NCBI RefSeq assembly: GCF_018866305.1
Contig: NZ_CP076456.1
Span: 1,240,001-1,304,000, forward strand
Direction: 5' to 3'
Source of the DNA: Arthrobacter sunyaminii
Lineage (GTDB): Bacteria; Actinomycetota; Actinomycetes; Actinomycetales; Micrococcaceae
DNA length: 64,000 bases
In this document: positions 50,701 to 54,810 of the stretch, piece by piece
Layout of the letters: each line of letters opens with the position of its first letter
Position numbering within the stretch: position 1 is the stretch's first letter
Program-made: the position numbers and the translations under genes
Notes under the pieces: generated by a model
Told to the model about the DNA's origin: nothing
What the model saw: the letters and a program-made list of their open reading frames with translations, nothing else
The model's database searches: none

Positions 50701-51675
50701 TCAGCGGCGGCGTTGCCTGGGCAGCCCAGCTCGAAGCAACATGCTCATCAGCCCGTCCGGATCGTTCCGGGGTTTGATGAGGTCGGCCCAGGACCAGCGG
50801 ACAAAGCCAACGCCGGTCGCCCGAATCGCATCTTCCCGCCTCTTCTCGAGGATGAGGGCTTCCCGGGAAGCCGTGCCGACCTGTTGGCTGGCGCCGGGGC
50901 TTCGGCTGGATCCCGCGGTTCCATACTTCACCGCGCCGTCGAATTCACCGACCAGCGCGTAGTCCTTCCAGAAAAAGTCGGTTCTTCCAATGAATTGTCC
51001 TCCGGCAGACCGGAACTCATATTGGAGGTCCGGAGGCGGAAATCCGTACAGATGCAAAACGGCACGGGAATAGGACTCGCCGGGGGATTCGGAACGGCTG
51101 TCCGCGAAGGAGATCACCCTTCTCGCCCTGGTGCGTTTGGCCTCGTCCGGAAGGTTTTCGCAAAGGATCAGCAAGGCATCCTTCTCCAAAGCGGGAAGGC
51201 TGCGTGCCGCATCCGGACGCAGGACGTGGTCCATGGCGGGAACGGCACGCTCGAAGCGAAGCCGAGCGGCCATGTCGAGGACTGTTTGAGCACGTGAGGT
51301 GAGGGTAAGGCCGTCCCTTGTCGTGGTCGGTTCGAGTAATCTCCGAGGTGTCCAGCGGAGACTGCCGCGGCGCCTTCCATGCGAAGTGCCCGGTGCCAGC
51401 AGCAGGATTTCAGAGGTTCTGCCGACGACCGGTAAACCCCAGATGACGGCGGCCGACTGCTGGATCAGGATCCGTGGTGCCTGTGCCTGATCCACGGCAG
51501 CAGTAATCGAGGCACGGTCCCGGTCCCACTGCGGCATCTTCTGCCACTGGGCGGCTTCGACGTAGACCCCGGCCCGCACCCGGACCAGCTCGCCCGCCTG
51601 ACATCTCCGGGCCAGGGAACGTCTGCCGGAGCCGTCGCGATCGGCGTCGGCTGCATAAAGAAACTCCGGATCCAT
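50701..51675 (-). CDS. AbiEi-antitoxin-like protein with C-terminal endonuclease-like (DUF559) domain
   Basis: 324 residues. The N-terminal region (LARRCQAGELVRVRAGVYV, about residues 20-40) resembles the winged-helix of AbiEi-type proteins, followed by the transcriptional-regulator-like middle part (TSRAQTVLDMAARLRFERAV, cited in part). The C-terminal portion carries SPGESYSRAVLHLYGFPPPDLQYEF, GRTDFFWKDYALVGEFDGAVKYG (in pieces), with Glu, Asp and E-x-D arranged as in Vsr/DUF559 PD-(D/E)xK folds. No AbiEii nucleotidyltransferase toxin lies nearby, so it is an orphan. Such orphans are common in actinobacteria and of unknown role. Convergent with the GH2 gene (5-bp gap). Confidence 0.82.
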   Translation of the reverse strand: MDPEFLYAADADRDGSGRRSLARRCQAGELVRVRAGVYVEAAQWQKMPQWDRDRASITAAVDQAQAPRILIQQSAAVIWGLPVVGRTSEILLLAPGTSHGRRRGSLRWTPRRLLEPTTTRDGLTLTSRAQTVLDMAARLRFERAVPAMDHVLRPDAARSLPALEKDALLILCENLPDEAKRTRARRVISFADSRSESPGESYSRAVLHLYGFPPPDLQYEFRSAGGQFIGRTDFFWKDYALVGEFDGAVKYGTAGSSRSPGASQQVGTASREALILEKRREDAIRATGVGFVRWSWADLIKPRNDPDGLMSMLLRAGLPRQRRR

Positions 51676-51745: not shown

Positions 51746-52475
51746 CGGGGGAAAGGCGGCCACTTTGGGCAGGCGCATCCGGATTGGGAATCTGCTGCCG
51801 GTGCGGACCGGCCCGCCCGAAAGGTGCGCGGATGCCCGGAGCGGCAGCGGATCAGGGGTCCGGTCCGCCCAATAGGTGCGCGGATGCCCAAAGCGGCAGC
51901 AGATCAGGGTCCGGTCCGCCCAAAAGGTGCGCGGATGCCCAGAGCGGCAGCATTTACCCAACTGGTTCCGCCACCAGCGGGAAAGACCGCCACTTTGGGC
52001 AGGCGCATCCGGATTGGGAATTTGCTGCCGGTGCGGACCGGCAGTGATTTCCCAAAAGGTGCGCGGATGCCCAAAACGGCAGCGGATCAGGGGTCCGGTC
52101 CGCCCAAAAGGTGCGCGGCTGCCCGGAGCGGCAGCGGATCAGGGGTCCGGTCCGCCCAAAAGGTGCGCGGATGCCCAAAGCGGTAGCGGATCAGGGTCCG
52201 GCCCGCCCAAAAGGTGCGCGGCTGCCCAAAGCGGCAGCATTTGCCCAACTGGTTCCGCCGCCACCGGGAAAGGCGACCACTTTGGGCAGGCGCATCCGGA
52301 TTGGGATTCTGCTGCCGGTGCGGACCGGCAGTGATTTCCCGAAGGGTGCGCGGATGCCCAGAACGGCAGCGGATCAGGGGTCCGGTCCGCCCAAAAGGTG
52401 CGCAGCTGCCCAAAACGGCAGCGGATCAGGGGTCCGGTCCGCCCGAAAGGTGCGCGGATGCCCAGAACGGCAGCA
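51746..52475. repeat. Higher-order tandem repeat array: ten 51/52-bp units with three longer interspersed units
   Basis: Unit A (about 52 bp, containing GGTGCGCGGATGCCCAAAG, GGCAGCGGATCAGGGG and TCCGGTCCGCCC) begins with GGTGCGC at 51823, 51875, 51926, 52058, 52110, 52162, 52213, 52345, 52397 and 52449, i.e. steps of 52, 51, 132, 52, 52, 51, 132, 52, 52. Unit B (ACTTTGGGCAGGCGCATCCG...) lies at about 51746, 51951 and 52239. It contains the hairpin TGCCGGT-GCGG-ACCGGCA. The order is B-AAA-B-AAAA-B-AAA. The step is not a multiple of 3 and several frames stay open merely because of base composition, so I judge it non-coding. It starts about 70 bp upstream of the AbiEi-like gene and ends 3 bp from the stop of the VOC gene. 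No unique spacers exist, so it is not CRISPR. This fills the 803-bp gap 51676-52478. Confidence 0.93.
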
Positions 52476-52478
52476 GAA

Positions 52479-53138
52479 CTAGATCTCGACGAGGCCCTTG
52501 GCCGTGTTGAACGTGACGGACATGATGCCGGGCGTGCCCTTGGGGGAAATCCACGTGACACCCACGTTCTCCAGCGGTTCCTCGGCCGGGGTGCCCAGCC
52601 ACTGCGCCACACGGTCAGCGGAGCCGGCGATGGTCAGCGAGTCCAGCTTCACGGCACCGGGCATGCCGGGCAGGGCGGCCGAGGGGTGCAGTTCCTCGGT
52701 TCCGTCATCCCAGCGCAGCATGTACGGCACCTGGGGGTCGGCGATCAGGCCGTTGATGCCGATCTGCCGCCAGGTCAGTTCCTGTCCGTCGGGGAACTTC
52801 CGGTTGCCCGGAACGGAGAGCCGTCCAAGCCGTTCTTCAAAGGGGGCGAGGTCATCCACGGCCACGCACCAGCCCATCCAGCCGCCGCCGCACTCGGAGC
52901 GCTGGCGCACTGCCTGGCCGAAGGGAGCCTTGTCCGAGGCCGGGTGGTTCAGGGCCTCCACCACCTCGACGTACTGATGGTTGGCCAGGGGAAGGATCAT
53001 GTTCCGCGTACCAAAACGCGGATGGACGCCGCCCTTGACGAAGTCCGCTCCCAGAGCGTCTGCGATCCTCTCTGTCGTGGCCAAAAGACCGTCGGATTCA
53101 CTGGCATAAGATACATGGTCCAAGCGCATGCGGCCCAT
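52479..53138 (-). CDS. VOC/glyoxalase-like domain protein
   Basis: A 219-residue protein of the Glyoxalase-like (PF13468-type) group. N-terminal MRLDHVSYASE...ALGADFVKGGVHPRFGTRNMILPL (cited as VHPRFGTRNMILPL) is the family signature, followed by QYVEVVEAL and GWMGWCVAVDDLAPFEERLG. The second half has LTWRQIGINGLI and LPYMLRWD-like PYMLRWDDGTEELHPSA. Start ATG 53138; ATG 53129 is possible. A longer upstream frame reaches the intergenic operator and is not credible. Function unknown. The repeat array begins directly behind its stop codon. Confidence 0.85.
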   Translation of the reverse strand: MGRMRLDHVSYASESDGLLATTERIADALGADFVKGGVHPRFGTRNMILPLANHQYVEVVEALNHPASDKAPFGQAVRQRSECGGGWMGWCVAVDDLAPFEERLGRLSVPGNRKFPDGQELTWRQIGINGLIADPQVPYMLRWDDGTEELHPSAALPGMPGAVKLDSLTIAGSADRVAQWLGTPAEEPLENVGVTWISPKGTPGIMSVTFNTAKGLVEI

Positions 53139-53165
53139 AATGGCACGTTGTGACCAGCGTCTCGA

Positions 53166-53306: not shown

Positions 53307-53424
53307 GGTCATGAGTGCCAGCAGATAGCCCCGGCTTGCTGGCCGGCAACCCTCCAACCGCGGTGGGGTGCCCCGGGTGAAGACCTGGCCCTGCCTCAAC
53401 GGATGCAGGGCAAGCGCGGGTCCC
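53307..53424 (+). promoter_or_regulatory. SAM-IV riboswitch
   Basis: The sequence from GGTCATGAGTGCCAGC through CCCCGGCTTGCTGGCCGGCA, ACCCTCCAACCGCGGTGGGG, TGCCCCGGGTGAAGACC, and the distal CAAGCGCGGGTCC matches the SAM-IV aptamer known from mycobacteria and streptomycetes. P1 is GGTC (53307) with GACC (53382-53385). It precedes metY-metX, genes of methionine synthesis, so S-adenosylmethionine should turn them off. The stretch 53425-53493 with GGTTATGGGAGC holds the expression platform and ribosome site; translational control is likely because no terminator is seen. Confidence 0.93.
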
Positions 53425-53493: not shown

Positions 53494-54810
53494 GTGTCAG
53501 AAAACTGGTCCTTCGAAACCCGTTCCATCCATGCCGGCCAGGAGCCCGACGCCGCTACCGGCGCCCGCGCCCTGCCTATTTACCAGACATCGTCCTTTGT
53601 CTTTCCCAGTGCGGAAGCAGCGGCCAACCGGTTCGCCCTGGCTGAGCTTGCCCCCATCTACACCCGCATCGGCAACCCCACGCAGGAAGCGGTGGAAAAC
53701 CGGATCGCTTCCCTTGAAGGCGGGATCGGGGCACTTCTGCTCGCCTCCGGGCAGGCCGCGGAAACCTTCGCCATTCTCAACGTGGCCGAAGCCGGAGACC
53801 ACATTGTGGCCAGCCCCAGCCTCTACGGCGGCACGTACAACCTGTTCAAGCACACGCTGAAGAAGTTCGGCATCACCACAACGTTCGTGGCCGATCCGGA
53901 CAATCTGGAGCAGTGGCGGGCGGCGGTGCAGCCCAACACCAAGGCCTTCTTCGGTGAGGTGGTCTCCAACCCCCGCCAGGACGTACTGGACATCGAGGGC
54001 ATCAGCGCAGTGGCGCATGAGGCCGGTATTCCCCTGATCGTGGACAACACGCTCTCCACCCCGTACCTGATCCGGCCCATCGAGTGGGGTGCGGACATTG
54101 TGGTGCACTCGGCCACCAAGTACCTCGGCGGGCACGGTACCGCCATTGCGGGCGTCATCGTGGATTCGGGCAATTTTGACTTCGGTGCCGATCCGGAGAA
54201 ATTCCCCGGCTTCAACACCCCGGATGAGAGCTACAACGGTCTCGTCTATGCCCGTGACCTGGGCGCCGGCGGCATTCTGGGTGCCAACCTCGCCTACATC
54301 CTCAAGGCGCGGGTCCAGCTGCTGCGCGATCTTGGCTCCTCCGTGTCCCCGTTCAACGCGTTCCTCATTGCCCAGGGCCTGGAAACCCTGAGCCTGCGCA
54401 TGGAGCGGCACGTGAGCAACGCCGTCGCGGTGGCCAACTGGCTGGAAGGGCACGACGACGTCGTCTCCGTCGCCTATGCGGGCCTGGAGTCCAGCCCGTG
54501 GTTCGAGCGCGGACGCCATTACGGGCCGCGCGGAACGGGCGCCATTGTCTCCTTCGAGATCAACGGCGGCATCGACGCCGGCAAGCGGTTCGTGGATGCC
54601 CTGGACCTGCACTCCCATGTGGCGAACGTGGGTGACGTGCGCTCCCTGGTCATTCATCCGGCGTCGACCACCCACAGCCAGCTGGGGGCCGAGGCGCAGC
54701 TGGCAGCGGGAGTCAGCCCCGGGCTGGTCCGGCTTTCAGTGGGCATTGAGCACATTGACGACATTATTGCGGACCTCGACGCCGGGTTCCGGGCAGCCAA
54801 GGGAGCGTAG
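53494..54810 (+). CDS. metY: O-acetylhomoserine (thiol)-lyase / O-acetylhomoserine sulfhydrylase
   Basis: A 438-residue PLP enzyme of the Cys/Met-metabolism family, forming homocysteine directly from O-acetylhomoserine and sulfide. N-terminal FETRSIHAGQEPD; ALPIYQTSSFVF; YTRIGNPTQEAVENRIASLEGG near residue 60 (cited in part); the PLP lysine in VVHSATKYLGGHGTA near 208; and the C-terminal LRLSVGIEHIDDIIADL pattern (seen as VRLSVGIEHIDDI). GTG start with GGGAGC upstream, 69 bp behind the riboswitch. It is followed 8 bp later by metX, which supplies its substrate. Confidence 0.95.
   Translation: MSENWSFETRSIHAGQEPDAATGARALPIYQTSSFVFPSAEAAANRFALAELAPIYTRIGNPTQEAVENRIASLEGGIGALLLASGQAAETFAILNVAEAGDHIVASPSLYGGTYNLFKHTLKKFGITTTFVADPDNLEQWRAAVQPNTKAFFGEVVSNPRQDVLDIEGISAVAHEAGIPLIVDNTLSTPYLIRPIEWGADIVVHSATKYLGGHGTAIAGVIVDSGNFDFGADPEKFPGFNTPDESYNGLVYARDLGAGGILGANLAYILKARVQLLRDLGSSVSPFNAFLIAQGLETLSLRMERHVSNAVAVANWLEGHDDVVSVAYAGLESSPWFERGRHYGPRGTGAIVSFEINGGIDAGKRFVDALDLHSHVANVGDVRSLVIHPASTTHSQLGAEAQLAAGVSPGLVRLSVGIEHIDDIIADLDAGFRAAKGA

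Follow-up and report, generated by a model that had tools for sequence, protein, structure and literature searches.

A palindromic repeat array in Arthrobacter sunyaminii suggests a REPIN-like repeat population associated with an AbiEi-Vsr-type nuclease gene

The closest described counterpart of the locus studied here is the association of repetitive extragenic palindromic (REP) sequences with REP-associated tyrosine transposases (RAYTs). In the available text of two reports, RAYT genes are vertically inherited and bordered by REPs, copying of the elements is very slow, and REPINs are fewer where the RAYT is missing (PMC2817692, PMC8049555). Here, we analyse an array of palindromic repeats in a 64,000-nucleotide stretch of Arthrobacter sunyaminii (contig NZ_CP076456.1, positions 1,240,001 to 1,304,000; hereafter the window), together with the gene that it precedes, whose predicted product joins an AbiEi-like DNA-binding half to a Vsr/homing-endonuclease-like half. 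The recurrence of array and gene suggests a partnership between a nuclease and repeated DNA that has not been described.

The resemblance to REPtrons (a RAYT or TnpA-REP gene with its REPs or REPINs), as the accessible text of three reports presents them (PMC2817692, PMC8049555, PMC3733652), lies in short extragenic palindromes that are dispersed, specific to a genome or clade and placed at the borders of a conserved gene, in repeat arrays beside that gene, and in lower repeat numbers where the gene is missing. A single-copy gene with bordering repeats, by which a REPtron is recognised, is also what we find here, with exceptions. In contrast to REPtrons, the partner is a predicted AbiEi-Vsr nuclease and not an IS200/IS605-type HUH/Y1 tyrosine transposase, the two aligned families (alignments A4 and A5) have no GTAG (or GTRG) end, the elements span 60-75 nt with an internal period of 19-20 nt, and the two border copies of a locus are more often direct than inverted (20 versus 10 of 34 loci, with 4 ties, a call that is weak because the palindromes are near-perfect). 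The AbiE type IV toxin-antitoxin system is the second relative: in the available text of its description, AbiEi is reported to repress its own promoter and to bind a pair of 23-bp inverted repeats that have an 11-bp core (PMC3985639). The protein of the window shares the AbiEi-type N-terminal fold, but it has an extra C-terminal nuclease-like half, its repeats are spread genome-wide, and neither of its two neighbours in the window, where this was tested, is an AbiEii nucleotidyltransferase toxin gene. Vsr-type genes are known from positions beside a methylase gene or in an intron. The C-terminal half resembles Vsr and Vsr-like homing endonucleases (I-Bth0305I) in a fold with conserved acidic residues, as seen in the predicted model; unlike theirs, the window gene lies between VOC and glycosyl hydrolase genes and is associated with palindromic repeats. 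Within the open-access papers searched, we found none tying AbiEi, DUF559, or Vsr-like genes to palindromic repeats.

The array sits upstream of the AbiEi-like gene, which starts at 51675 on the minus strand, and its other end adjoins the VOC stop codon (52479-52481), as a first-pass annotation made from the sequence alone had placed it (Table 1). That annotation had listed ten copies of an A unit with spacings of 52, 51, 132, 52, 52, 51, 132, 52, and 52, which match the ten motif positions exactly. Tandem Repeats Finder (TRF) reports a 52-nt period and a 287-nt higher-order unit between 51808 and 52477 (92% matches, score 1151); read from this output and the motif positions, the 52-nt unit consists of 19+19+14 nt. 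The hairpin TGCCGGT-GCGG-ACCGGC, previously assigned to a separate B unit, occurs at 51796-51812, 52026-52042, and 52313-52329, with the continuation ...CAG only in the second and third. The B unit contains the A sequence in inverted orientation around this hairpin, and its approximately 80 nt form one nested hairpin. Folding of 131 nt gave -71 kcal/mol (z = -5.2), a value equalled by 0 of 200 shuffles. Units follow each other head-to-tail and spacer-free, in agreement with the first look, and a CRISPR array was rejected because there are no unique spacers between the repeats. A known RNA family was also rejected because the only Rfam match between 50600 and 53600 (E up to 1), a SAM-IV riboswitch, lies outside the array. 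The array is not a conserved coding repeat, given a step that three does not divide and a unit that differs wholly between species. An assembly artefact is unlikely because one other genome of the genus (G007) has, at the corresponding position, a stretch of the array with 90% identity.

Table 1. Coordinates in the window of the array, its components, and the adjacent genes.
Feature	Coordinates	Strand	Evidence
Higher-order palindromic repeat array, putative locally amplified 5' element of the nuclease gene	51746..52477	.	Repeat search, folding, corresponding site in relatives
Palindromic element 1 (left arm and hairpin; right arm merged into A units)	51764..51812	.	
Palindromic element 2 (nested hairpin, runs on into the A unit at 52058)	51994..52059	.	
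Palindromic element 3 (nested hairpin, runs on into the A unit at 52345)	52281..52346	.	
Three consecutive A units (19+19+14 nt); motif starts 51823, 51875, 51926	51816..51959	+	
Four consecutive A units; motif starts 52058, 52110, 52162, 52213	52051..52246	+	
Three consecutive A units; motif starts 52345, 52397, 52449	52338..52477	+	
Partner gene, 324 aa, predicted AbiEi-like DNA-binding half and Vsr/homing-endonuclease-like half	50701..51675	-	
TTATCCACA motif, 60 nt ahead of the start codon	51727..51735	-	
VOC/Glyoxalase_3 gene, conserved neighbour and marker for the same site in 29 genomes, not counted in the system	52479..53153	-	

The building block of the array, about 19 nt long, iterated and mirrored around the hairpin, is found at eight other sites of the same 3.9-Mb genome: a search with the array gave 13 matches, corresponding to the array itself and these eight sites, some of them matched on both strands. 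The palindromes elsewhere have the form CCGTTTTGGGAAATCGCTG-CCGG..CCGG-CAGCGATTTCCCAAAACGG, each arm with one or more units of 19-20 nt, and the alignment of ten palindrome cores, two of them from the window, revealed an invariant frame. We then counted matches to four arrays across 29 genomes of the genus (19 to 27 of the preliminary candidate matches scored per genome; the counts are matches and not sites, as one palindrome may count on both strands). The window array has 11, 8, and 7 matches in G000, G007, and G019 and 0-3 in the rest. The G021 array has 42 matches in G009, 41 in G010, 28 in G018, 36 in G020, 41 in G021, 45 in G022, and 12 in G027, with 0-6 in the remaining 22 genomes, and the G005 array has 39, 34, and 31 in G005, G013, and G015 and 0-5 in the other 26. 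The G027 array is found 7 times in G027, once in G028, 17-36 times in G009, G010, G018, G020, G021, and G022, and 0-5 times elsewhere. We are highly confident that the window array is one member of a family of dispersed palindromes with a link to the AbiEi-like gene. The first-pass description of a protein-binding or structured array beside an orphan AbiEi-like gene holds as far as it goes; it had missed this family, and its hint at a link with the gene, which turned out to be the key, had missed the nuclease-like half and the recurrence in other actinobacteria. Several palindromes of the group of G010, G020, G021, and G022 (L215, L216, L218, L221, L277, L279, L280) are accompanied by another dispersed stretch, which surrounds GGGATATTAAAGCCGCCTTATCCGGGCGCC or its reverse.

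The partner protein is the sole match to itself in its own genome (E<=0.01). Its two halves were recognised from predicted fold and families, with presumed roles for the acidic residues. Its matches to the AbiEi profiles in a defence library are weak (best E 3.7e-08); NCBIfam gave no match at E<=1 for the two proteins queried, and a sequence-profile search for relatives of solved structure gave none at E<=1. Homologues are annotated as "hypothetical", "AbiEi domain-containing", or "endonuclease domain-containing". The gene is flanked in the window by the Glyoxalase_3 (VOC) gene and a glycosyl hydrolase family 2 gene. While the VOC gene is present in all 29 genus genomes, a match to the AbiEi-like gene is found in 28, always beside the VOC gene by coordinates, and is missing from G028; in G009, G012, G023, and G027 it falls into two pieces and appears broken. 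Behind the VOC stop, we read palindromes or arrays ahead of the AbiEi-like gene, with an iterated unit that differs per clade (genus loci up to within L029 and from within L033 on), and the arrays change fast in length and sequence between species. At a palindrome score of 14 or more, 15 of 28 genomes have a palindrome in the gap between the two genes, 19 within 250 nt behind the nuclease gene, 25 on at least one side, and 9 on both. By eye, a palindrome directly follows the nuclease stop in 17 of 22 loci (not in G000, G007, G024, G005, and G001), and such counts differ from the scored ones, e.g., because the 5' arrays of G010 or G020 score under 14.

The association extends beyond the genus. 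By their contig names, the close homologues come from Arthrobacter species such as A. gandavensis, A. luteolus, A. citreus, and A. koreensis, and among the best 80 of 159 relatives in named genomes, 63 carry other names (L148-L210) and 17 are Arthrobacter. With gene starts estimated from the alignment (a few reading frames, L161 and L188, stop early), palindromes scoring 14 or more lie upstream (350 nt) in 38 of the 63 distant loci, downstream (250 nt) in 40, on both sides in 26, and on at least one side in 52, against a background of 0.032 per 300 nt elsewhere in these loci. The corresponding numbers for the 17 Arthrobacter loci are 11 upstream, 11 downstream, and 8 on both sides (background 0.036). 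The two hairpins of one locus are alike: their median score is 43.5, versus 8 for hairpins of different loci, and 32 of 34 loci exceed the 95th percentile. Direct repeats at lags of 19 or 20 occur in 25% and 26% of the distant flanks (n=126), compared with 2% and 1% of 630 controls, and lag 19 occurs in 44% of the Arthrobacter flanks (n=34), compared with 2% of 170 controls; the next highest value, at lag 38 (twice 19) in Arthrobacter, is 21% versus 0%. Elements outside the genus are hairpins of about 60-75 nt, the arms of which often repeat a 9-11-nt motif every 19-20 nt. Whole-genome searches with a single hairpin, in three genomes that are not a random sample because they were picked for strong hairpins at both borders, identified 13 sites in Paenarthrobacter sp. 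DKR-5, 13 in Gordonia hankookensis, and 47 near-full-length sites in Pseudonocardia spinosispora (counted from the list, the two border copies included). Each of the three hairpins had 0 sites in seven other genomes, including four other Gordonia and one other Pseudonocardia. Among the 38 classified sites, 36 lie outside heuristic gene calls, and the 2 inside are from Gordonia.

Aligned Paenarthrobacter and Gordonia copies have sharp ends and are alike over their full 60-75 nt. Covariation receives fair support in Paenarthrobacter (12 of 13 sites), where 16 cells show two-sided changes (0 of 500 shuffles as high) and 5 pairs have a two-sided change (reached in 59 of 500), and modest support in Gordonia (13 sites; 6 cells, 16 of 500 shuffles; 4 pairs, 87 of 500). 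A fixed stem position is a T.G mismatch in 8 of 12 Paenarthrobacter and 6 of 13 Gordonia copies (alignments A4 and A5; L281-L305). Vsr itself acts on T:G mismatches. Several Gordonia elements (L293-L305) lie between a C-rich left and a G-rich right tract that prolong the inverted repeat. Another feature of the loci is the motif TNTCCACA, present 59-61 nt ahead of the nuclease start in 15 of the 17 Arthrobacter loci and 54-108 nt ahead in 17 of the 63 distant ones (opposite strand 6 of 63; control windows 0 of 124 and 3 of 467). We take it, like TTATCCACA, to be DnaA-box-like; it may reflect a link to replication or simply be part of the promoter.

Close relatives offer one comparison each for a lost and an exchanged gene. 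G027 and G028 are 98.4% and 94.4% identical around the locus, where about 1.37 kb of G027 (array, nuclease, and 3' element) is replaced in G028 by about 0.56 kb. The gene-less G028 has no array and a single match to the G021 array, versus 12 in G027, itself a comparison genome with an apparently broken gene. At two further sites, an element present in G027 and G010 (at site A also in G021) is missing from G028, through an imprecise change and not a clean excision. In G020 and G021, the neighbouring stretches are 97-99.8% identical and the 5' arrays 92-94%, whereas the nuclease coding sequences are only 58-74% identical and the 3' hairpins are of different types. This allele swap, with borders near the array and the 3' element, lends some support to the earlier suggestion of a recombination hot spot. 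Behind the nuclease of G021, a 285-aa frame that is alpha/beta hydrolase-like by eye lies between two near-identical elements (L214:561-1625); it corresponds to a gap in G020 and looks as if elements had captured a gene. We built trees and made Mantel tests for 24 of the 29 genomes, leaving out the four with apparently broken genes and G028, and for the 3' test also the five lacking a palindrome by eye behind the stop. With VOC distance controlled for, the similarity of the 3' hairpins tracks nuclease distance (r 0.59, p 0.0002, n 19); with nuclease distance controlled for, it does not track VOC distance (r 0.07, p 0.19). Both distances contribute in the 5' region (nuclease r 0.33, p 0.0004; VOC r 0.18, p 0.008; n 24).

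We favour, with moderate confidence, the interpretation that an unrelated nuclease keeps a repeat population of the REPIN/RAYT kind and that the window array is its amplified 5' element. That nuclease and repeats are functionally partnered is probable; that the nuclease disperses or maintains the elements is a closer call, which we put slightly on the doubtful side. The window array would be the 5' copy of a REPIN-like palindromic family, locally amplified by tandem duplication, in which, judging from the nesting of the units, a 52-nt half element was probably duplicated first and a 287-nt block later. We infer binding, cleavage, and copying of the elements by the nuclease: a protein with a DNA-binding half and a nuclease half, usually encoded beside iterated inverted motifs, most simply binds and cuts these motifs. 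Like AbiEi, which binds inverted repeats at its promoter, the AbiEi-like half most likely recognises the iterated inverted motifs, and nicking or cutting at the element would most likely fall to the Vsr/homing-endonuclease-like half. The element could then be copied, very rarely, to other intergenic positions or be maintained by gene conversion, with RAYTs as an analogical working model.

Several observations weigh against this interpretation. Copies and nucleases are not always matched: G018 and G020 carry many copies of a type whose usual nuclease sits elsewhere in the tree, as does G013, with weak tree support; the nuclease of G016 is G021-like (support 0.70), yet its 3' hairpin differs; and G009 has 42 matches to the G021 array although its gene appears broken. 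The gene is not strictly single-copy in seven genus genomes because they encode a second, distant relative (26-31% identity). No scored palindrome is found on either side in 3 of 28 genus genomes (G001, G007, and G023, despite the stretch of window array in G007) and in 11 of the 63 distant loci, and the window's own locus is without a scored 3' palindrome. The gene-loss comparison concerns one genome only, and the Mantel result, for which VOC is a slowly evolving control, may in part be explained by transfer of linked DNA. We observed no transposition: G020 and G021 (about 99% identical) share the three sites at which they were compared, as do G010 and G021 (about 93%) at another three, and the stretches of G010, G020, G021, G022, G027, and G028 searched for recent insertions yielded only shared sites or absences in G028. 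A MITE of a classical IS would carry terminal inverted repeats and a target-site duplication; here the element is a palindrome throughout, and inspection of the 25 aligned sites by eye revealed no clear duplication.

We also considered three other explanations. The palindromes could be operators of the AbiEi-like protein, at its own gene and elsewhere, or bidirectional terminators, spread by ordinary recombination while the nuclease half does something else. The geometry of the AbiEi operator, in the available text of PMC3985639, is close to that of the 19-20-nt motif, and sites between convergent genes (8 of 12 in Paenarthrobacter, 6 of 13 in Gordonia, and 4 of 13 in Pseudonocardia, by heuristic gene calls) are placed like terminators. 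However, few sites (3 of the 38 classified) separate divergent genes, the place of shared promoters, no more than 1 of 25 aligned copies is followed, by eye, by a run of T, the likeness over 60-75 nt with sharp ends exceeds what a binding site needs, and 47 sites in one genome contrast with none in a congener. We regard such a regulon as unlikely.

A role in defence or self-recognition, in which the nuclease attacks incoming DNA and the hairpins act as decoys, self-marks, or recombination borders that aid allele exchange, seems improbable to us. It would fit the weak defence-library matches, the swap of nuclease coding sequence and 3' hairpin between near-identical genomes, and the four apparently broken genes. 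Many defence genes are not kept at one chromosomal site, whereas this gene is in 28 of 29 genomes, and the two tested neighbours are the Glyoxalase_3 and glycosyl hydrolase family 2 genes. Least plausible, and already disfavoured, is a neutral satellite: hairpin-prone DNA that grew by slippage beside the gene by chance, with no functional link. Tandem growth through slippage or unequal crossing-over is ordinary, and the arrays do vary fast in length and sequence between species; this leaves unexplained why homologues in other families are bordered by palindromes, the shared 19-20-nt period, the similar hairpins at both borders, and the genome-specific dispersal.

Elsewhere in the window, the SAM-IV riboswitch (Rfam RF00634) at 53307-53422 (+), with 124 bits against a gathering score of 38, precedes a reading frame at 53494 and is ordinary, and positions 2337-2611 hold CCGACC-rich tandem repeats.

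The generalisation that we propose, tentatively and at slightly worse than even chances, is that many actinobacteria harbour intragenomic palindromic repeat populations, each kept up and spread by an AbiEi-Vsr nuclease of its own. Such a class would parallel REPIN-RAYT with unrelated enzymology: an antitoxin-type DNA-binding fold would read the iterated 19-20-nt motif, and a homing-endonuclease-type domain would process the hairpin. The question why conserved, "domesticated" enzymes keep palindrome populations in bacterial genomes over the long term has so far rested on RAYTs. If our interpretation is true, RAYTs could be compared with a second, unrelated enzyme that behaves alike in genomes, and the question could be tested directly. 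The group of genes with the annotations given above would also gain a role, and some of the genome-specific intergenic hairpins of actinobacteria would be explained.
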